Shown piece after piece: positions 391-7,636 of a DNA stretch of 7,636 nt. The stretch's first letter is position 1; the number at the start of each line of letters is the position of its first letter. The position numbers were made by a program, and so were the translations under genes. The DNA comes from Nitrospirota bacterium (GTDB taxonomy: Bacteria > UBA2233), in contig WOZJ01000047.1 in the NCBI GenBank assembly GCA_011620345.1, forward strand, positions 1-7,636. Reading direction: 5' to 3'. Below the pieces are notes generated by a model that saw nothing but the letters and a program-made list of their open reading frames with translations, did not search any database and was not told where the DNA came from.

Positions 391-1194
391 ATGTCTTACG
401 AAGACATCCTGTACGAAATCAAGGAAGGTATCGCCACGGTCACGATCAACCGGCCAAAGGTGTACAACGCATTTAGGCCCAAGACGATCGAGGAGCTGAC
501 CGATGCGTTCACAATAGGGGGAGACGACCCAGAGGTAGGCGTCATCGTGCTTACGGGCGCGGGCGAGAAGGCCTTCTGCACGGGCGGCGACATGGGAGAA
601 TGGCACGTTGGCGAGGGCTACACGGGGGCAAGCTGGACGGGGATCGGGCTGTCTATGGAGAGGCTGCACCGCATGATCCGTTCCGTCCCCAAGCCCGTGA
701 TCGCATCCGTCAACGGCTACGCAATCGGCGGCGGGAATGTCCTTCAGGTGCTCTGCGATTTGGCGATTGCCTCCGAAACGGCCGTCTTTGGCCAGGTTGG
801 CCCGAAGGTCGGAAGTTTCGACGCCGGCTTCGGTACGGCCTACTTGGCGAGGCTCGTGGGCGAGAGGAAGGCCCGCGAGATCTGGATGCTCTGCAGGCGC
901 TACTCGGCCAAGGAGGCACTCCAAATGGGGCTGATCAACCACGTCGTGCCCCAAGATCAGCTCGCCCAAGAGACCGAGAAGTGGGCCAAGGAGGTCCTCG
1001 CTTTGTCGCCCACTGCCCTTAAGGCGATCAAGTACTCCTTCAACGCGGACACAGAGCACATCGCGGGGCTAACCAACCTCGCCATGGCCTCCGTCGGGCT
1101 GTACTACCGCACGCCCGAGTCTGGGGAGGGCCACAACGCCTTCAAAGAGAAACGGCCCACGGACTTCATGCGCTATCGAAAGCCCGGATTCTAA
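391..1194 (+). CDS. BadI/MenB-type crotonase: probable cyclic beta-ketoacyl-CoA hydrolase
   Basis: A 267-residue crotonase-fold enzyme. GGAGG at 380-384, 6 nt before ATG, fixes the start. Motifs in order: INRPKVYNAF (19-28), oxyanion-hole loop FCTGGD (62-67), second oxyanion segment YAIGGGN (110-116), GQVGPKVGSFDAGFGTAYLA (134-153) with the catalytic-type Asp144, REIWMLCRRYSAKEA (162-176) and the C-terminal LYYRT (237-241) with Tyr239. Asp144 and Tyr239 match the Asp and Tyr used by 1,4-dihydroxy-2-naphthoyl-CoA synthase (MenB) and by BadI, which hydrolyses 2-ketocyclohexanecarboxyl-CoA to pimeloyl-CoA. The absence of MenB's extra N-terminal stretch and the GFGTAYLARLVGE wording favour BadI, as does the lack of any other menaquinone gene. 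It is the first gene of a catabolic acyl-CoA operon, 3 nt before the next gene. Ring-opening (reverse Dieckmann/Claisen) hydrolysis is the best guess. The exact substrate is unknown, and a plain enoyl-CoA hydratase role is less likely. Confidence 0.82.
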   Translation: MSYEDILYEIKEGIATVTINRPKVYNAFRPKTIEELTDAFTIGGDDPEVGVIVLTGAGEKAFCTGGDMGEWHVGEGYTGASWTGIGLSMERLHRMIRSVPKPVIASVNGYAIGGGNVLQVLCDLAIASETAVFGQVGPKVGSFDAGFGTAYLARLVGERKAREIWMLCRRYSAKEALQMGLINHVVPQDQLAQETEKWAKEVLALSPTALKAIKYSFNADTEHIAGLTNLAMASVGLYYRTPESGEGHNAFKEKRPTDFMRYRKPGF

Positions 1195-1197
1195 AGG

Positions 1198-2376
1198 GTG
1201 CCCGGTTTGCTTTCGGGCCTTCGGGTGCTGGATTTTACGAACCTTCTCCCCGGCCCTCTTTGCTCGATGCTGATGGCGGACTCTGGGGCCGAGGTGATCA
1301 AGATCGAGCCCCCCATGAAGGGGGATTTAGGAAGGCAGACCGAGCCTCGCGAGGGAGGAGTCTCGCTTCGCCACCTCCAGCTCAACCGGGGAAAGAAGAG
1401 CCTTACGCTCAACCTCAAAGACAAAAGGGGAAGGGACATTCTTCGAACGCTGGCCAAGGAAGCGGACGTTCTTCTGGAGGGTTTCCGGCCGGGGGTGATG
1501 AAAAGGCTGGGCGCGGATTTCCCTAGCCTTTTTGAGGCCAACCCGCGCCTCGTCTACGGCTCGCTCGCGGGGTTTGGCCAGGATGGGCCCCTTGGCCAAA
1601 CCCCTGGCCACGACATCAACTACCTAGGGTATTCCGGCGTGCTTTCGCTCATGGGGCAAAATCCGGACGAAGTGGCCATTCCGGGCGTACAAATCGCAGA
1701 CGTGGGCGGGGCGCTTCTTTTCTTCTCGGGTGTTTTGATGGCGCTTTTTGCCAGGGAGCGAACTGGCCGGGGCTGCCATATCGACACTTCCCTATTTGAT
1801 GCCGCAGCCTTGTTCCTTGCGCCCGTCCTGCCCGAGGCGATGACGCTGGCCGGGGGGCCAAAGCGCGGGAAATTGCGCCTAAACGGCAAATGGGCCTGTT
1901 ACGGCGTTTACCCCGCCAAAGACGGCAAGTTCTTGAGCGTTGGGGCGCTCGAGCCAAAGTTTTGGAAGAGGCTCTGCGAGGCTCTAGGAAGGCCCGAGTG
2001 GGTCCCCATGCAGTACGAGCCCGGCCAAACCCAGGCCGAGCTGAAAGAAGGCCTAAGAGGCGTGTTCCTTGGCCAAGACCGCGCCTACTGGCTTGAGCGC
2101 TTCAAAGGGGAAGACGTTTGCATCGGGCCGGTTTTGGAGCCCGAAGAGGCGATCTTGGAGCCCCAAGCGCGCTCAAACGGGCTTTTTTTGGAGCTTGACC
2201 ACCCAAGGGCGGGCAAACTCATCCAGCTTGGCCTTCCTTGGCGTTTCAGCTCTTTGCCCAAGGCCCCTCCGTTCAAACCCGCACCCGGGCTCGGCGAGCA
2301 CACTATGGAGATTCTAAAGGGGTTGGGAATCAGCCAGGCCAAGGCTGCACAACTCAAAAAAGAGGGCGTTGTGTGA
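1198..2376 (+). CDS. CaiB/BaiF-family protein, alpha-methylacyl-CoA racemase-like
   Basis: A 392-residue member of the type III CoA-transferase/racemase family. Opening LLSGLRVLDFTNLLPGP (4-20), then NRGKKSLTLNLK (63-74), RPGVMKRLG (97-105), GHDINYLGYSGVLS (137-150), IADVGGALLF (166-175), RERTGRG (186-192) and VGALEPKFW (248-256). All CaiB-family enzymes need an Asp here (Asp168). In addition, His138 in GHDINY and Glu252 in ALEP fall at the spacing of the His126/Asp156/Glu241 set of mycobacterial alpha-methylacyl-CoA racemase. This suggests epimerisation of a 2-methylacyl-CoA, although CoA transfer to a dicarboxylate cannot be excluded. Start: an in-frame TAA lies 3 nt upstream, so GTG 1198 is the earliest start but has no spaced SD. 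TTG 1207 has AAAGGG 8 nt upstream and would give a product 3 residues shorter. The gene overlaps the next one by one base. Confidence 0.85.
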   Translation: MPGLLSGLRVLDFTNLLPGPLCSMLMADSGAEVIKIEPPMKGDLGRQTEPREGGVSLRHLQLNRGKKSLTLNLKDKRGRDILRTLAKEADVLLEGFRPGVMKRLGADFPSLFEANPRLVYGSLAGFGQDGPLGQTPGHDINYLGYSGVLSLMGQNPDEVAIPGVQIADVGGALLFFSGVLMALFARERTGRGCHIDTSLFDAAALFLAPVLPEAMTLAGGPKRGKLRLNGKWACYGVYPAKDGKFLSVGALEPKFWKRLCEALGRPEWVPMQYEPGQTQAELKEGLRGVFLGQDRAYWLERFKGEDVCIGPVLEPEEAILEPQARSNGLFLELDHPRAGKLIQLGLPWRFSSLPKAPPFKPAPGLGEHTMEILKGLGISQAKAAQLKKEGVV

Positions 2377-3524
2377 TGGATTTTTCGCTCCCAGAAAGCA
2401 TCCTAGAGATGAAGAAGGTCGTTGCCGCGTTCGTGGCCAAGGGGGTGGACCCGAGGGCCAAGGAAATCGAAGAGGCGGACGCCATTCCTGAGGACATCGT
2501 TGCCAAGTGCAAGGATATGGGGCTTTTTGGCCTTGGCATTCCAGAAAACTACGGCGGGCTTGGGCTTGGCATGGTGGGCCGTGCGGCGATTTTAGAAGAG
2601 CTCGGCAAAACGATCAACGGGTTCACGACGTTCATCGGAGGGCATGTGGGAATCGGAACGGTCGGCATCGTCGCTTTTGGTTCCAAGGACCAAAAGCTGC
2701 GCTATCTCCCAAAAATGGCCTCTGGCGACTGGATCGGGGCGTTTGCCCTAACAGAGCCGGATGCAGGGTCGGATGCGGCATCTCTCAAGACCACGGCCGT
2801 AAAGAAAGGGGAGCGCTACGTTCTAAACGGCTCGAAGCACTTCATCACGAACGGCGATGTCGCCCACGTCTTTACCGTCATGGCCAAAACCGACCCCAAG
2901 GCGGGGCCTAGGGGGATCAGCTCATTCCTCGTCGAAAAGGGCTTCCCCGGGCTTCGTGTGGGCAAGCTCGAGAAAAAAATGGGGCTTAAAGGCTCGCACA
3001 CGACCGGGCTGTCCTTTGAAGACTGCGAGGTTCCTGAAGAGAACCTTCTTGGCAAGGAAGGGGAAGGGTTTGTAAACGCGCTTAAGGTGCTCACGAACGG
3101 GAGAGCTGGCCTGGCCGCGAGGAACCTGGGTTCCTGCCAGAAGCTTTTGGAGCTAAGCCTAGCCTACGCAAGCGAGCGTGTGCAGTTTGGCAGGCCCATC
3201 CTTGCCCAGCCGGCCATTCGTCACTACTTGGCCGAGATGGCCACGGAAGTCGAGCTGGTGCGCTCGATGGTATACCGCGTGGCCTGGATGGTGGATCAAG
3301 GTCAAAACGTGATCAAAGAGGCGGCCATGGTCAAGCTGTTCGCCTCCGAGGCGTACAACCGCATCGCGGACAAGGCGCTCCAGGTCCACGGCGGGATGGG
3401 CTACATGTGCGACATGCCCATCGAGCGCTACTACAGGGACGCCAGGATCACCCGCATTTACGAGGGCACTTCCGAAATTCAAAAGAACATCATCGCCCGG
3501 GAGCTCGAAAAGGGGCTTGAATGA
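2376..3524 (+). CDS. Acyl-CoA dehydrogenase (FAD, ETF-linked type)
   Basis: A full-length 382-residue acyl-CoA dehydrogenase that forms an alpha,beta-double bond in an acyl-CoA and passes electrons to electron-transfer flavoprotein. N-terminal helical domain with MGLFGLGIPENYGGLGLG (48-65); beta-domain FAD/substrate signature FALTEPDAGSDAASL (123-137) and FITNGDVAHVF (156-166); C-terminal helical domain NGRAGLAARNLG (241-252), ERVQFGRPI (267-275), QVHGGMGY (336-343) and IYEGTSEIQ (361-369). Glu363 in YEGT is at the position of the catalytic base of medium- and short-chain enzymes. The frame is open further upstream, but ATG 2376 is chosen because GAGGG lies at 2362-2366, the ATG overlaps the previous TGA (TGATG), and family proteins begin this way. 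The substrate is not readable; in this cluster a cyclic or branched acyl-CoA is plausible. It overlaps the next gene by 4 nt. Confidence 0.93.
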   Translation: MDFSLPESILEMKKVVAAFVAKGVDPRAKEIEEADAIPEDIVAKCKDMGLFGLGIPENYGGLGLGMVGRAAILEELGKTINGFTTFIGGHVGIGTVGIVAFGSKDQKLRYLPKMASGDWIGAFALTEPDAGSDAASLKTTAVKKGERYVLNGSKHFITNGDVAHVFTVMAKTDPKAGPRGISSFLVEKGFPGLRVGKLEKKMGLKGSHTTGLSFEDCEVPEENLLGKEGEGFVNALKVLTNGRAGLAARNLGSCQKLLELSLAYASERVQFGRPILAQPAIRHYLAEMATEVELVRSMVYRVAWMVDQGQNVIKEAAMVKLFASEAYNRIADKALQVHGGMGYMCDMPIERYYRDARITRIYEGTSEIQKNIIARELEKGLE

Positions 3525-4777
3525 TGCAAAGATGGGTCAGCCCCAGCCAGGCGATCGCGCGCATCGGCTCGTTCCAGAGCGTGGCCATGGGTGCGATGTG
3601 CGCGGAGCCCCCGGTGCTCGCACTCGAGCTCGCCCGTCAGGCTCCAAGGCTTGAGGGCGTCGCGCTGTACATCTCGGCACTAGGAAGCCCCTGCCCTTAC
3701 GCAACGCCAAGCTTTCGAGGAAGCTTCAAGATTCGGCCCTTGCTTTCCTCTTTTGCCCTAAAAGAAGCCTCAGAGGCGGGCATGGTGGAATACCTGCCGG
3801 TCAACTTCAGCGAGGCCCCAAGGCTTTTTGAGACGCTCAGGCCGGATATCGCCCTCATCCAGGCAACCCCGCCCGATGAAAAGGGGCGCTTTGGCCTTGG
3901 GTTGGCCTGTGATTACACGCTTGCTTTGGCAAGAAGCGCAAAATGCGTGATCGTCGAAGTAAACCCCGCCATGCCGCGGGTGTTCGGCGAAGGATCGCTG
4001 GGTGAGGAAGAAATAGACCTTCTCGTGGAAGGGGGCGAACCCCCCTACGCGCTCCCTAAAAAGCCCCCCAGCAAGGAAGAGGCTATGATCGCCCTCCATG
4101 TGGCGGGGCTCATCCCGGACGGGGCGACAATCGAAATAGGGATCGGGGCTTTGGCGGGCGCGATTCTTAAGGCGCTCGAAGGCAAGAAAGACCTAAGCCT
4201 TCATACGGGCACGTTTCCCGAAGAGGCCTTCTTGCTTATCGAAAAAGGCGCCGTTCAGAACACGAGCAAAGGCAGGGACTCAGGCAGGATCGTGGCCAGC
4301 AACTTGGCTGGCACCGAGGCGCTGTATGCGTGTGCCAAAGAAAACCCCCTCGTAGAGCTAAGGCCCACGGATTACACCCACCATGCCCGGACGCTTTCGA
4401 CAATCCCAAAGTTCTTCGCCATCAACCAAGCGATTGAGGTGGACCTCGCGGGACAAATCAACGCCGAGAGGCTTGGAGGCCTTATGGTTGGGGGCGTGGC
4501 GGGCCAGGCGGATTTCATGCGGGGGGCCGTGGCCTCTCATGGAGGGGCCTCGATCGTTGCGCTCCCTTCCACCGCCAAAGGGGGTTCGGTTTCAAGGATC
4601 GTCCCAAGCTTAGCGCATGTGACCTCGGCCAAATCCGACGTGCACGCGATCGTCACGGAGTTCGGCGTTGCCAGGCTCTTTGGCCAAACGCTCCCCAAGA
4701 GGGCCGAAGCGCTCATCGGCATCGCCCATCCCGCGTTCCAGAAAGGGCTCGAAGAGGCCCTCAAGGCGATACACTGA
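3521..4777 (+). CDS. Acetyl-CoA hydrolase/4-hydroxybutyrate CoA-transferase-family protein lacking the usual catalytic Glu
   Basis: A 418-residue protein of the acetyl-CoA hydrolase/transferase family (AbfT, butyryl-CoA:acetate transferase type), of about normal length. N-terminal domain with PDIALIQATPPDEKGRFGLG (108-127); middle IPDGATIEIGIGALAGAIL (198-216); then LHTGTFPEEAFLLIEKGAV (227-245); C-terminal domain FAINQAIEVDLAGQINAE (299-316), GGVAGQADFMRGAVASHGG (324-342), ALPSTAKGG (347-355), SRIVPSL (358-364), DVHAIVTEFGVARL (373-386) and RAEALIGIAHPAF (394-406). Active family members carry a Glu in a HSE/HTE motif that forms the CoA thioester. Here the motif reads HTG, with Gly230 at the Glu site. 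Fold assignment is secure, but true CoA transfer is doubtful; a hydrolase or C-C cleaving role is possible. The start is the ATGATG at 3521/3524, with AGGGG at 3511-3515; the 4-nt overlap suggests translational coupling to the dehydrogenase. Confidence 0.85.
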   Translation: MMQRWVSPSQAIARIGSFQSVAMGAMCAEPPVLALELARQAPRLEGVALYISALGSPCPYATPSFRGSFKIRPLLSSFALKEASEAGMVEYLPVNFSEAPRLFETLRPDIALIQATPPDEKGRFGLGLACDYTLALARSAKCVIVEVNPAMPRVFGEGSLGEEEIDLLVEGGEPPYALPKKPPSKEEAMIALHVAGLIPDGATIEIGIGALAGAILKALEGKKDLSLHTGTFPEEAFLLIEKGAVQNTSKGRDSGRIVASNLAGTEALYACAKENPLVELRPTDYTHHARTLSTIPKFFAINQAIEVDLAGQINAERLGGLMVGGVAGQADFMRGAVASHGGASIVALPSTAKGGSVSRIVPSLAHVTSAKSDVHAIVTEFGVARLFGQTLPKRAEALIGIAHPAFQKGLEEALKAIH

Positions 4778-4783
4778 AAGGAG
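4778..4783 (+). promoter_or_regulatory. Strong Shine-Dalgarno site for the HMGCS-like/OB-fold gene
   Basis: AAGGAG lies directly after the preceding TGA (4775-4777) and 6 nt before ATG 4790. It fixes that start and marks the only junction after the dehydrogenase where the genes do not overlap, so this gene probably initiates independently. Confidence 0.75.
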
Positions 4784-4789
4784 TTTGCC

Positions 4790-6193
4790 ATGCCAGGCAT
4801 CGTTCGGATCGGTACCTACCTTCCCCGCCATCGGCTTTCGGCGGCAACCCAGGGCTGGCCCCATGCCAGCTCCCGCGCCGTAGCCTACCACGACCAAGAT
4901 AGCCTAACGCTTGCCATAGAGGCTTCGAGGCGCTGCCTTATGGGGTTTGATCTAGACAAAGTGGACGCGGTGTTTTTTGTGAGCACCTCCTCGCCCTTCT
5001 TAGAAAAGCTCTCAAGCGCCTTCCTTGCGGCAGGGTTGGGGCTACGAAGCGATGTGCTTGCGCTCGACATTGCCGGATCGCCCGCAGGCCTTGGTGCCGC
5101 GCTCGAGGCGGGGCTTGGGATGATCGCCTCGAACAGGGCTCGCTACGTCCTGATCGCCTCGGGCGATTGCCGGGACGCCATGCCCTTTTCTTCGATCGAG
5201 GCGCTAAGCTCGGATACAGGAGGGGCCGTGCTGCTCGGCCGGCAGGGCGTCATCGCAGAGCTTGAAGGATCGAGTTTTCTTACGCTCCCCATCCTCGATA
5301 CCTGGCAGTTACGCCATGAGCGCTACTTAAAAGACACCGAGGAGCGCTTTATCCAAGAGAAGGGCTATCTAAGCGCCCTTCCAAAGGCAATGGAAGGCCT
5401 GCTTCAAAAAATGGGTGCCGGGGTACATGACTTTGCCTATGCAGGCATCGCACAACCCGACCCAAGGCGCCTTGGCCAGGCGGCCAAGGCGTTGGGGCTT
5501 GGCCAAAAGGGCCTTCTAGGCGAGCGCCTGTACAAGGAGCTTGGCTACCTCGGCTGCTCTACGCCCGCGTTCTTGCTCGAGGAGGCGCTTCAAACGATGA
5601 CCTCTGGAGAGCGAGCACTCCTTTTGGGTTACGGCGACGGGGCGTTCGCGATCGCGCTCAAGGCCGCCCAAGGGCTTGAAAAAGCAAGGCCAAAGAATGC
5701 GTCCTGGCTCTTTAGGGACGTGGCGCACTACACGGACATCTTAAAATGGAAAGAGCACGTGCTTTACGCCCCCAGGGCAAGAAGGCCGTCTTTAGACCCG
5801 TCCTCCCCGATCTCTCTTTTTCGTGAGCGCCAGCAGAATTTGGCGCTCGTCGGCGTGCGCTGCAAAGGTTGCGGCTACCCTCAGTATCCAGCTCAACGGC
5901 TGTGCACTCGCTGCAGGGGGACGGATTTTGCCCCCGAGCCCTTTGCCGAAAAACGCGCCACACTCTTTACTTATTCGCTGGACACCTTAGGCCCAACGCC
6001 CGACCCACCCTTGATCGTGTGCTTCATCGATTTTGAGGGCGGAGGAAGGATGCAGTGCCTGATGACGGATGCCGACCCCAAAGAGCTAAACATCGGGATG
6101 CCGCTTGAAATGACGTTCCGGAGGCTATTTGTGGCGGATGGCATCCCCAACTACTTCTGGAAATGTACGCCCATGAGGGAGGGCAAGTCATGA
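4790..6193 (+). CDS. HMG-CoA synthase-like domain fused to a DUF35 Zn-ribbon/OB-fold; probable non-catalytic thiolase partner
   Basis: A 467-residue two-part protein. Residues ~1-295 have the thiolase-like HMG-CoA synthase/KAS III fold: FVSTSSPFLEKLSSAF (63-78), LDIAGSPAGLGAALEAG (92-108), ASGDCRDAMPF (123-133), SDTGGAVLLG (141-150), ERFIQEKGYL (185-194), AGIAQPDPRRLGQAAKALGL (218-237) and LGYGDGAFAIAL (279-290). After a linker, residues ~355-380 form a rubredoxin-like zinc ribbon (Cys358, 361, 372, 375), followed by an OB-fold to about residue 460. The usual Cys, His and Asn catalytic positions read Ser97/Pro98, Ala221 and Tyr253, so condensation chemistry is unlikely. DUF35 proteins bridge thiolase and HMGCS in archaea and partner the benzoylsuccinyl-CoA thiolase BbsB as BbsA. 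With the thiolase gene overlapping it by 4 nt (ATGA), a structural or CoA-channelling partner is the likely role. The subunit arrangement is inferred. Confidence 0.85.
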   Translation: MPGIVRIGTYLPRHRLSAATQGWPHASSRAVAYHDQDSLTLAIEASRRCLMGFDLDKVDAVFFVSTSSPFLEKLSSAFLAAGLGLRSDVLALDIAGSPAGLGAALEAGLGMIASNRARYVLIASGDCRDAMPFSSIEALSSDTGGAVLLGRQGVIAELEGSSFLTLPILDTWQLRHERYLKDTEERFIQEKGYLSALPKAMEGLLQKMGAGVHDFAYAGIAQPDPRRLGQAAKALGLGQKGLLGERLYKELGYLGCSTPAFLLEEALQTMTSGERALLLGYGDGAFAIALKAAQGLEKARPKNASWLFRDVAHYTDILKWKEHVLYAPRARRPSLDPSSPISLFRERQQNLALVGVRCKGCGYPQYPAQRLCTRCRGTDFAPEPFAEKRATLFTYSLDTLGPTPDPPLIVCFIDFEGGGRMQCLMTDADPKELNIGMPLEMTFRRLFVADGIPNYFWKCTPMREGKS

Positions 6194-7377
6194 GCGGGAT
6201 AACGGATAAAATCGCCATCGTCGGGATGGGATGCACGAAGTTTGGAGAGCACTGGGACAAGGGTCTCGAAGACTTGATCGTCGAGGCCGCGCTCGAGGCC
6301 TTTTCTGATGCCCAAATCGAGGCCAAAGACATCGAGGCCGCGTGGTTTGGGATGCAGTACGCCATCGGCACGGCCCGTGGCACCCCCTTGGCGCACGCCT
6401 TGAAGCTCGATTACATCCCGATCACGCGCGTCGAGAACGCCTGCTGCACGGGAACGGACGCCTTTCGCAACGCCTGCTTCGGTGTGGCCAGCGGGATGTA
6501 CGAGACCGCACTCGTCGTGGGCGTCGAAAAAATCAAAGATTCGGGGCTCTCTGGCCTGCCCGTCTCGTACGCCCCCATCTGGGGCTCGCGGGTTGAACCG
6601 CCCGTACCCGCGCCCGTCCAGTTCGCGCTGGCCGCGACGCGCTACTTTGCAACCTACGGCCTGAGCTACGAGGAGGGTAAGCGCCTTTTGGCCAAAATCG
6701 CCGTAAAGAACCACAAAAACGGCGTGAAGCACCCCAAGGCACACCTGCGCCGCGAAATCAGCCTCGAAGACGCCTTAAAGGCCCCGCTTGTGGCCTGGCC
6801 CTTGGGGCTTTTCGACTGCTGCCCGGTAAGCGACGGCGCGGCCGCCGCCATCATTACGACCCCCGAGAAGGCAAGAAGGCTTGGCCGCCCTTACACGCTC
6901 GTCAAGGGGATAGGGCTTGCCTGCGGGGCAAGGCAAGCCCTCTTAGACGATGCCTACGATATGGTCCACTTTGAAGAGACCGTCCGCGCGGCCAAACAGG
7001 CCTACGACCAGGCGGGCATCAAAAACCCGCGCGAGGAAATAAGCCTGGCCGTCGTTCACGATTGCTTCACGATCACCGAGCTCATCATCTACGAAGACTT
7101 GGGGCTCAGCTCTAGGGGCAGGGCCAAGGAGGACATCGATTCGGGATTCTTCGAGATTGACGGGGGGCTTCCTGTCAACACGGACGGTGGCCTGAAGTGC
7201 TTTGGACACCCGATCGGGGCCTCGGGCCTGAGGATGCTCTACGAGGTCCACAACCAGCTCCTTGGAAGGCCCTTGGGGCTCAAGGTTGAAAACCCAAGGC
7301 TCGGCCTGACCCACAACCTTGGCGGCCATCCGGGGCATTTCACCTGCGCGGTGTGCGTACTGGGGCAAGGAACGTGA
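6190..7377 (+). CDS. SCP2-type thiolase (acetyl-CoA acetyltransferase family)
   Basis: A 395-residue SCP2/nonspecific-lipid-transfer-type thiolase that should cleave a 3-oxoacyl-CoA with CoA. Motifs: IAIVGMGCTKFG (8-19), VENACCTGTDAFRNA (81-95) with nucleophile Cys85, CPVSDGAAAAI (211-221), VVHDCFTITE (288-297) with His290, NTDGGLKCFGHPIGASG (330-346) with His340, and THNLGGHPGHFTCAVCVLG (374-392). The nucleophilic Cys and both His motifs are kept, so it should be active, unlike the related steroid side-chain aldolases (Ltp2 type), which work without thiolysis. ATG 6190 is preferred over the in-frame ATG 6163: GGAGGG (6178-6183) sits 6 nt upstream and the start overlaps the preceding stop as ATGA. 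Coupling to the HMGCS-like/OB-fold gene predicts a complex like BbsAB. The His-rich HPGHF segment near the C-terminus looks unusual for the family. The substrate is unknown. Confidence 0.9.
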   Translation: MSGITDKIAIVGMGCTKFGEHWDKGLEDLIVEAALEAFSDAQIEAKDIEAAWFGMQYAIGTARGTPLAHALKLDYIPITRVENACCTGTDAFRNACFGVASGMYETALVVGVEKIKDSGLSGLPVSYAPIWGSRVEPPVPAPVQFALAATRYFATYGLSYEEGKRLLAKIAVKNHKNGVKHPKAHLRREISLEDALKAPLVAWPLGLFDCCPVSDGAAAAIITTPEKARRLGRPYTLVKGIGLACGARQALLDDAYDMVHFEETVRAAKQAYDQAGIKNPREEISLAVVHDCFTITELIIYEDLGLSSRGRAKEDIDSGFFEIDGGLPVNTDGGLKCFGHPIGASGLRMLYEVHNQLLGRPLGLKVENPRLGLTHNLGGHPGHFTCAVCVLGQGT

Positions 7378-7497: not shown

Positions 7498-7541
7498 TGT
7501 CCAATAGCCCGAGCAAAGGGTGTTTTGAAGCTAAGAGGATA

Positions 7542-7636
7542 ATGGCCGTGCTGATTTCGGAACATTTCACGCCTGTATCCGCGCTACTTGGCGGGGTCAT
7601 TCTTGGTTTGGCCGCTTCGCTGGCGTGGGTTTTGCT
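7542..7636 (+). CDS. YeeE/YedE-family membrane protein, N-terminal fragment (cut by window edge)
   Basis: The first 31 codons of a gene running off the right edge: MAVLISEHFTPVSALLGG followed by VILGLAASLAWVLL. The FTPxSALLGGxxxGLAA opening and the immediate hydrophobic helix are typical of YeeE/YedE (TsuA-like) inner-membrane proteins, which import thiosulfate or related sulfur species. AGAGG at 7534-7538 is only 3 nt from ATG 7542. GTG 7548, two codons in, has a better 9-nt spacing and would make a product beginning at residue 3. It stands about 60 nt after the last possible operon ORF, so it may belong to a different transcription unit and a different function. The assignment rests on about 30 residues only. 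Confidence 0.6.
   Translation, partial: MAVLISEHFTPVSALLGGVILGLAASLAWVL

Follow-up and report, generated by a model that had tools for sequence, protein, structure and literature searches.

A UBA2233 acyl-CoA operon combining a Gly/His CoA-transferase-fold protein with a synthase-fold protein lacking catalytic residues: a candidate ring-opening route for alicyclic acids

What compound is processed by six tightly packed acyl-coenzyme A (acyl-CoA) genes in a bacterium of the UBA2233 lineage, and is a ring opened along the way? The genes occupy most of a 7,636-base stretch of DNA (the window, meaning the whole stretch analyzed), which is the entire contig C44 of a 1.80 Mb, 97% complete assembly. 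UBA2233 corresponds to Candidatus Cutipiota, whose two listed genomes measure 1.8-1.89 Mb and were obtained from oil-contaminated soil and a tailings pond (PMC11382960); the genome of the window is probably one of these two genomes. A previous sequence-only reading had proposed an uncharacterised ring-opening acyl-CoA operon. Ring opening is also our best reading, drawn by analogy: with modest confidence, we favor the operon as the lower part of a degradation route for alicyclic carboxylic acids, naphthenic-acid- or terpenoid-like, in which the ring is opened by acyl-CoA chemistry. The six genes are:

391-1194, plus strand: gene A, predicted BadI-like crotonase-fold 2-oxocycloalkane-carboxyl-CoA hydrolase (BadI/MenB branch)
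1198-2376, plus strand: gene B, GTG start, CaiB-fold protein with alpha-methylacyl-CoA racemase residues
2376-3524, plus strand: gene C, acyl-CoA dehydrogenase
3521-4777, plus strand: gene D, CoA-transferase-fold protein, predicted ThnP-type, of a Gly/His subfamily (Gly230 and His287 replacing Glu and Asn)
4790-6193, plus strand: gene E, 3-hydroxy-3-methylglutaryl-CoA (HMG-CoA) synthase-fold domain that lacks the catalytic residues and is fused to a zinc ribbon/oligonucleotide-binding (OB) fold (DUF35) domain
6190-7377, plus strand: gene F, thiolase of the PRK06157 family with catalytic Cys and His intact

The description of six co-oriented, tightly packed genes holds: all lie on the plus strand within 391-7377, with spacings of -4 to +12 bases (A-B, +3; B-C, overlap of 1; C-D, overlap of 4; D-E, +12; E-F, overlap of 4). 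Pfam and NCBIfam searches likewise returned the families previously assigned, namely crotonase, CaiB/CoA_transf_3, acyl-CoA dehydrogenase, AcetylCoA_hydro, HMG-CoA synthase-like plus ChsH2-type zinc ribbon/OB fold, and thiolase. Close solved homologs exist for genes C, D and F.

Gene D is homologous to 4-hydroxybutyrate CoA-transferases, whose active-site Glu corresponds to Gly230, in agreement with its earlier description as "Glu-less". Across 54 aligned members of the family, Gly at the active site is paired with His at a second site (23/24), while Glu, Gln or Pro is paired with Asn (29/30), a coupling with a Fisher p of ~2e-14, kinship not corrected for. In a tree built from the first 44 rows of the alignment, a branch with support of 100/99 separates the Glu/Gln/Pro-Asn set from the Gly set, and gene D clusters with its counterpart in the sister genome G001 and a Bacillota protein (100/99). 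G001, of the same genus, is the nearest relative; the other genomes searched are related at domain level only. In succinyl-CoA:acetate CoA-transferase, the essential Glu294 is held in position by Asn347, which also forms the internal oxyanion hole (PMC4876117). The match ranges (278-412 of D to 338-468 of that chain), as opposed to a residue-level alignment, place His287 at about residue 347.

The closest characterized precedent is ThnP from the naphthalene-degrading culture N47, which has Gly238 where the Glu would be and was shown to move CoA intramolecularly between both carboxyls of 2-(carboxymethyl)cyclohexane-1-carboxylate; its discoverers call the Glu-free mechanism open and suggest Glu269 as a substitute residue (PMC11659651). 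In locus L163 the genes follow the order published for thn, among them AtuA-like, amidohydrolase, paired MaoC-type, thiolase, acyl-CoA dehydrogenase and short-chain dehydrogenase/reductase (SDR) genes. The protein at the ThnP position there shares 43% identity with gene D and has the Gly/His pair. By our own count, Glu269 of ThnP matches the Glu of a TAE motif in L163. The equivalent residue is not conserved in the D proteins of the sister genome, ZC4RG07, Sphingopyxis and Azoarcus. We hypothesize that the conserved His (His287 in D) is a better common candidate than Glu269 for the Glu substitute. An acyl-CoA dehydrogenase gene adjoins the transferase gene in both systems, as the overlapping C-D here and as ThnO-ThnP in thn, with an SDR gene between the two in L163. 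From these sequence comparisons, gene D is predicted to be a ThnP-type intramolecular CoA-transferase.

The Gly/His pair also occurs elsewhere. A second clade of such CoA-transferases, in Desulfobacterota, has an HSGML motif and lies beside unannotated genes (L156 4182-5462, L157 9628-10908, L159 1408-2691 and L160 4737-6023). On Methylobacterium and Novosphingobium plasmids (L199 7092-10201 and L200 7120-14875), genes for MaoC, CoA ester lyase, a Gly/His CoA-transferase and BKACE recur together without E-F, and these groups suggest another use of the D-type protein.

Gene A is 62-64% identical to BadI-type proteins encoded on Marinobacter and Cupriavidus plasmids and 54-59% identical to annotated MenB proteins. 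It falls just short of the cut-offs of two MenB models (361.5 against 380 bits, and 330.1 against 342.7). In a tree, the MenB clade (support 97/100) leaves out gene A and takes in the MenB of the men operon of the sister genome, so that A is not the menaquinone enzyme of this lineage, and the tree together with that separate operon (listed below) rules out a housekeeping MenB. No second MenB-like match was found in the assembly of the window; it is either lost or missing from the assembly. On this comparison, gene A appears nearest to BadI and outside the MenB clade, its exact place among BadI types being unsettled. In the Marinobacter cluster, the BadI-type gene adjoins aliB, which encodes a cyclohexanecarboxyl-CoA dehydrogenase, and an SDR gene, and a Haematobacter plasmid has badI, aliB and aliA annotated.

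G001:C54, 8386-11905 (sister genome): menaquinone operon with MenD-, MenB- and MenA-like genes

Gene E was previously described as a fusion of an HMG-CoA synthase-like domain and an OB fold. Fold and fusion stand, with PF12172 and PF01796 (zinc ribbon and OB fold) both scoring above cut-off, and the zinc-ligand residues Cys358, 361, 372 and 375 are conserved in 90/90 relatives; what had escaped notice is that the synthase part has lost all three catalytic residues. The Glu, Cys and His of HMG-CoA synthase are replaced by Thr, Pro and Ala in gene E, and at the three catalytic positions of the archaeal enzyme they are absent in all 90 relatives. In four plasmid relatives, His occurs at the third position in one (Sphingopyxis), and Cys or Glu in none. 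PhlA also lacks the catalytic Cys. HMG-CoA synthase activity is thus ruled out for gene E by the residues missing throughout its family. Gene F scores 559 bits against NF004810 (cut-off 403), and its Cys85, His290, Cys292 and His340 are invariant across 96 sequences. In 76 of 80 loci, the gene immediately upstream of F is E.

Since E is inactive as a synthase in all 90 relatives, we read it as serving the intact thiolase F as a DUF35-type partner. E-F is probably a widespread two-protein thiolase in which the synthase-like part is structural and the two proteins would bind each other. Genes E and F match PhlA/PhlC and HMG-CoA synthase complexes, and the pair is comparable with PhlA and with DUF35 complexes covered in a review (PMC12329534). 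Thiolase/HMG-CoA synthase-fold/DUF35 complexes have the same composition as E-F, except that here the synthase-fold and DUF35 parts are fused and the catalytic residues are gone. Against the equivalog models of BbsAB, the benzoylsuccinyl-CoA thiolase, the pair scores 156.3 and 22.7 bits, missing the cut-offs of 750 and 250 bits. A second E-F pair occurs in both Cutipiota genomes outside any A-D context (G000:C26, in the genome of the window, L105 10340-13050; G001:C2, L108 8419-11129), with F ~52% identical.

Gene B scores 360 bits against PF02515. Its best score in the PDB is for succinate-hydroxymethylglutarate CoA-transferase (197.8 bits), against 178.7 bits for a racemase. Aligned with the alpha-methylacyl-CoA racemase of M. 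tuberculosis, it keeps the GHDINY motif, the Asp of D(F/V)GG and the Glu of GA(I/L)EP (GALEP in B), the racemase residues being, by the numbering we presume, His126, Asp156 and Glu241. The CoA-transferases aligned with gene B carry GYD or AYD at the first motif in place of GHD. From these residues we read B as racemase-type, although the overall score slightly favors a CoA-transferase. Gene C has three Pfam acyl-CoA dehydrogenase domains, matches solved homologs with up to 363 bits, contains the motif RIYEGTSEIQ with the usual catalytic Glu, as judged from sequence, and is 38% identical to the ThnO-position gene of a thn operon.

A search for conservation of the six-gene order showed that it is not kept even in the only close relative. 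In the sister genome, all six genes are adjacent and split into two divergent units, A-B-C-D and an extra acyl-CoA dehydrogenase gene with E and F. Among the 80 loci gathered via F, close A, B, C and D were found in the sister genome only, which rules out a conserved order: the full set is limited to this one genome, in rearranged form. The B-D pair also occurs at a contig end in Bacillota ZC4RG07. On GC-rich plasmids, taking gene positions from annotated coordinates, A and D are neighbors in three clusters (Sphingopyxis, Rhodobacteraceae QY30 and N. resinovorum), and E, F and D in three others (Azoarcus KH32C, Paraburkholderia PGU19 and Diaphorobacter HDW4B); the D proteins of all six are Gly/His. 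The A, D, E, F and dehydrogenase types thus recur on proteobacterial plasmids of aerobic degraders. CoA ligases, MaoC, CoA ester lyase, BKACE proteins and acyl-CoA dehydrogenases are among their neighbors, to which Sphingopyxis adds an alkane monooxygenase. Since the window is a complete contig, the genes flanking the operon in its own genome cannot be read. No steroid genes were found in the annotated parts of the flanks of the sister cluster. About 4 kb from that cluster lie a molybdopterin oxidoreductase gene encoding a twin-arginine translocation (Tat)-like leader and an iron-sulfur subunit gene (G001:C9, L103, 5887-9271), and on its opposite side are genes that by eye resemble molybdate/tungstate transporters.

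The absence of a hydratase and a 3-hydroxyacyl-CoA dehydrogenase, pointed out before, extends across the whole contig; a full-length 3HCDH_N match is present elsewhere in the genome (G000:C26), as are several SCP2-type thiolases. Entry from an aromatic compound was also considered. Neither class of benzoyl-CoA reductase was found in the genome of the window or the sister genome, and no enzyme of the aldehyde:ferredoxin oxidoreductase type. Both genomes have a lone HGD-D protein beside an ASKHA-type activator ATPase (G000:C21, L188, 1180-3281; G001:C55, L187, 734-2778), and a class I benzoyl-CoA reductase would need more subunits than the single HGD-D protein provides. Old yellow enzyme-type proteins are present, but were not identified as aryl-CoA reductases. 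An aromatic origin via benzoyl-CoA reductase was rejected on finding neither reductase class, and glycyl-radical activation because no pyruvate formate-lyase-like gene was found; these absences speak against entry from aromatic hydrocarbons by those known routes.

In the pathway that we propose, A would hydrolyze a (branched) beta-keto thioester of the 2-oxocyclohexane-carboxyl-CoA type, opening the ring to yield the mono-CoA ester of a dicarboxylate. B would epimerize an alpha-branched acyl-CoA so that the dehydrogenase accepts both configurations, D would shift CoA between the two carboxyls of the diacid without the usual glutamyl anhydride, like ThnP, and C would form the alpha,beta double bond. 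Beta-oxidation enzymes encoded elsewhere in the genome would carry out the hydration and hydroxyacyl oxidation, after which an E-F complex would thiolyze a bulky beta-keto acyl-CoA, with F as the catalytic and E as the structural, CoA-binding partner. We infer the substrate, the order of the steps and the direction of the pathway; the gene packing, homology, residue states and co-clustering come from this analysis, and the ThnP reaction and BadI chemistry were shown elsewhere.

Several known clusters are similar. The lrc operon for limonene ring cleavage in Syntrophobacteraceae LiM6 has, going by its published annotation, nearly the same enzyme kinds (PMC12583861), but the window has a CaiB/racemase gene and no hydratases or hydroxyacyl dehydrogenases. 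LrcC was proposed to cleave as an HMG-CoA synthase in reverse (PMC12583861), and judging from its residues, the E family would be unable to cleave by such a mechanism. The thn operon of N47 and NaphS2, for anaerobic naphthalene degradation (PMC11659651, PMC12016498), has in common with the window the acyl-CoA dehydrogenase beside a Glu-to-Gly CoA-transferase (ThnO-ThnP), a crotonase-fold ring hydrolase and thiolases. However, gene A shares just 34% identity with the ThnL-position gene, and the window has no AtuA-like lyases (ThnQ/ThnS), MaoC pair, amidohydrolase or naphthoyl-CoA reductases; AtuA-like lyase and naphthoyl-CoA reductase genes were likewise not found in the annotated parts of the flanks of the sister cluster. 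The bad/ali cyclohexanecarboxylate pathway (BadI, BadH, AliB) would share BadI-type ring opening through gene A, but has no need of D, B or E-F, and the operon has no BadH- or AliA-type genes. The edc estrogen cluster of Novosphingobium tardaugens, in the part of its description used here, groups a BadI-like gene, a thiolase, an HMG-CoA synthase-like gene and an acyl-CoA dehydrogenase as in the window; it has steroid genes, and that part describes no counterpart of D or B (PMC7793797). The mrc cluster of Castellaniella was rejected as a direct match, since the portion of its account considered here describes BadH/I/K homologs and no D/E-F set. The label "uncharacterised" was therefore only partly apt, as alicyclic and terpenoid ring-opening clusters such as lrc (by annotation) and edc are similar. 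What distinguishes the operon from known ring-opening clusters is the racemase, together with the absence of a hydratase and hydroxyacyl dehydrogenase of its own.

The evidence for alicyclic ring opening comprises the BadI-like A outside MenB, a ThnP-type D beside an acyl-CoA dehydrogenase, the racemase triad of B, the pairing of an intact F with an inactive E, the adjacency of all six genes in the sister genome, the A-D and E-F-D plasmid clusters, the likeness to lrc by annotation, the oil-contaminated soil and tailings pond origin of the phylum, and the 3-hydroxyacyl-CoA dehydrogenase match elsewhere in the genome. Several observations weigh against it. Gene A and its sister-genome counterpart score 356.9 and 361.5 bits against the badI model TIGR03210, under its equivalog cut-off of 467.6, and gene A branches away from classical BadI. 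The position of ThnP Glu269 is Asn261 in gene D. The Desulfobacterota Gly/His clade lies outside ring clusters, so that the signature is wider than ring degradation. Finally, no CoA ligase, BadH-type dehydrogenase or hydratase gene is in the contig, so the step making the beta-keto substrate is not linked to the operon.

The absent Glu itself invites another explanation. IpdAB works without a Glu nucleophile, and is one of two possible analogies for D, which might then be a carbon-carbon hydrolase opening a second ring or splitting a 1,3-diketone, with A opening or hydrating another ring of a bicyclic or steroid-like acid. The missing Glu in D, the several SCP2-type thiolases of the genome and the resemblance of E to partners in steroid-type thiolase/DUF35 complexes would fit, but D is a single chain of the Cat1/4-hydroxybutyrate branch and not of the two-subunit IpdAB branch, its characterized relative ThnP performs intramolecular CoA transfer, and the annotated sister flanks have no steroid genes; we consider this fairly unlikely. 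It is unlikely, too, that no ring is opened and that the operon degrades acyclic methyl-branched or isoprenoid acids, with B racemizing, C dehydrogenating and A acting as hydratase or hydrolase on linear substrates. Gene A is 62-64% identical to BadI-type proteins whose genes adjoin AliB- and BadH-like ones, ordinary beta-oxidation has no counterpart of A, and a D-type transferase fits best with diacids from ring opening, even though the racemase triad, the reported action of thn crotonases on linear substrates and the failure to find an aromatic ring-reducing reductase or glycyl-radical activating enzyme are all compatible with acyclic acids. A biosynthetic cluster, with E-F working as a condensing enzyme or in the manner of the PhlA/PhlC acyltransferase and A closing a ring like MenB, would account for the PhlA/PhlC and HMG-CoA synthase matches of E and F and for the closeness of A to MenB. 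Yet A falls outside the MenB clade and MenB is separate in the sister genome, the acyl-CoA dehydrogenase and ThnP-type transferase fit catabolism, and the genes around the plasmid relatives encode CoA ligases, an alkane monooxygenase and beta-oxidation enzymes, making biosynthesis very improbable.

Two other features of the window are:

162-191, no strand: perfect 30-base palindrome CCTCTAAACGACAGG/CCTGTCGTTTAGAGG, ~200 bases upstream of gene A
7541-7636: open frame starting MAVLISEHFTPVSALLGGVILGL, truncated by the contig end, by eye a YeeE/YedE-type membrane protein

The palindrome has no second copy in the genome of the window and none in the sister genome, and is a possible candidate for an operator or an upstream terminator. 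Rfam gave no match.

Returning to alicyclic ring opening, the operon supplies a specific hypothesis about the metabolism of a phylum for which two genomes are known, both from oil-affected sites. Every one of its parts is similar to enzymes known from ring degradation, but proteins D and E have both undergone a family-wide loss of textbook catalytic residues that calls for chemistry other than their names imply, and we consider the subfamily of Gly/His CoA-transferases and the inactive partner E most worth following. That the HMG-CoA synthase residues are lost uniformly across the E family speaks against retro-HMG-CoA-synthase steps for such proteins in ring degradation. The coupled Gly/His signature singles out one residue, His287 in D, for the Glu-free mechanism of ThnP-type enzymes, together with a family in which to test it. 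More tentatively, it is possible that Gly/His CoA-transferase-fold proteins, including D, ThnP and relatives, form a separate enzyme class in which His replaces the glutamate chemistry, and that the operon, with its racemase and pseudo-HMG-CoA synthase/DUF35-thiolase, may give an uncultured phylum a distinct and complete pathway for branched naphthenic acids.

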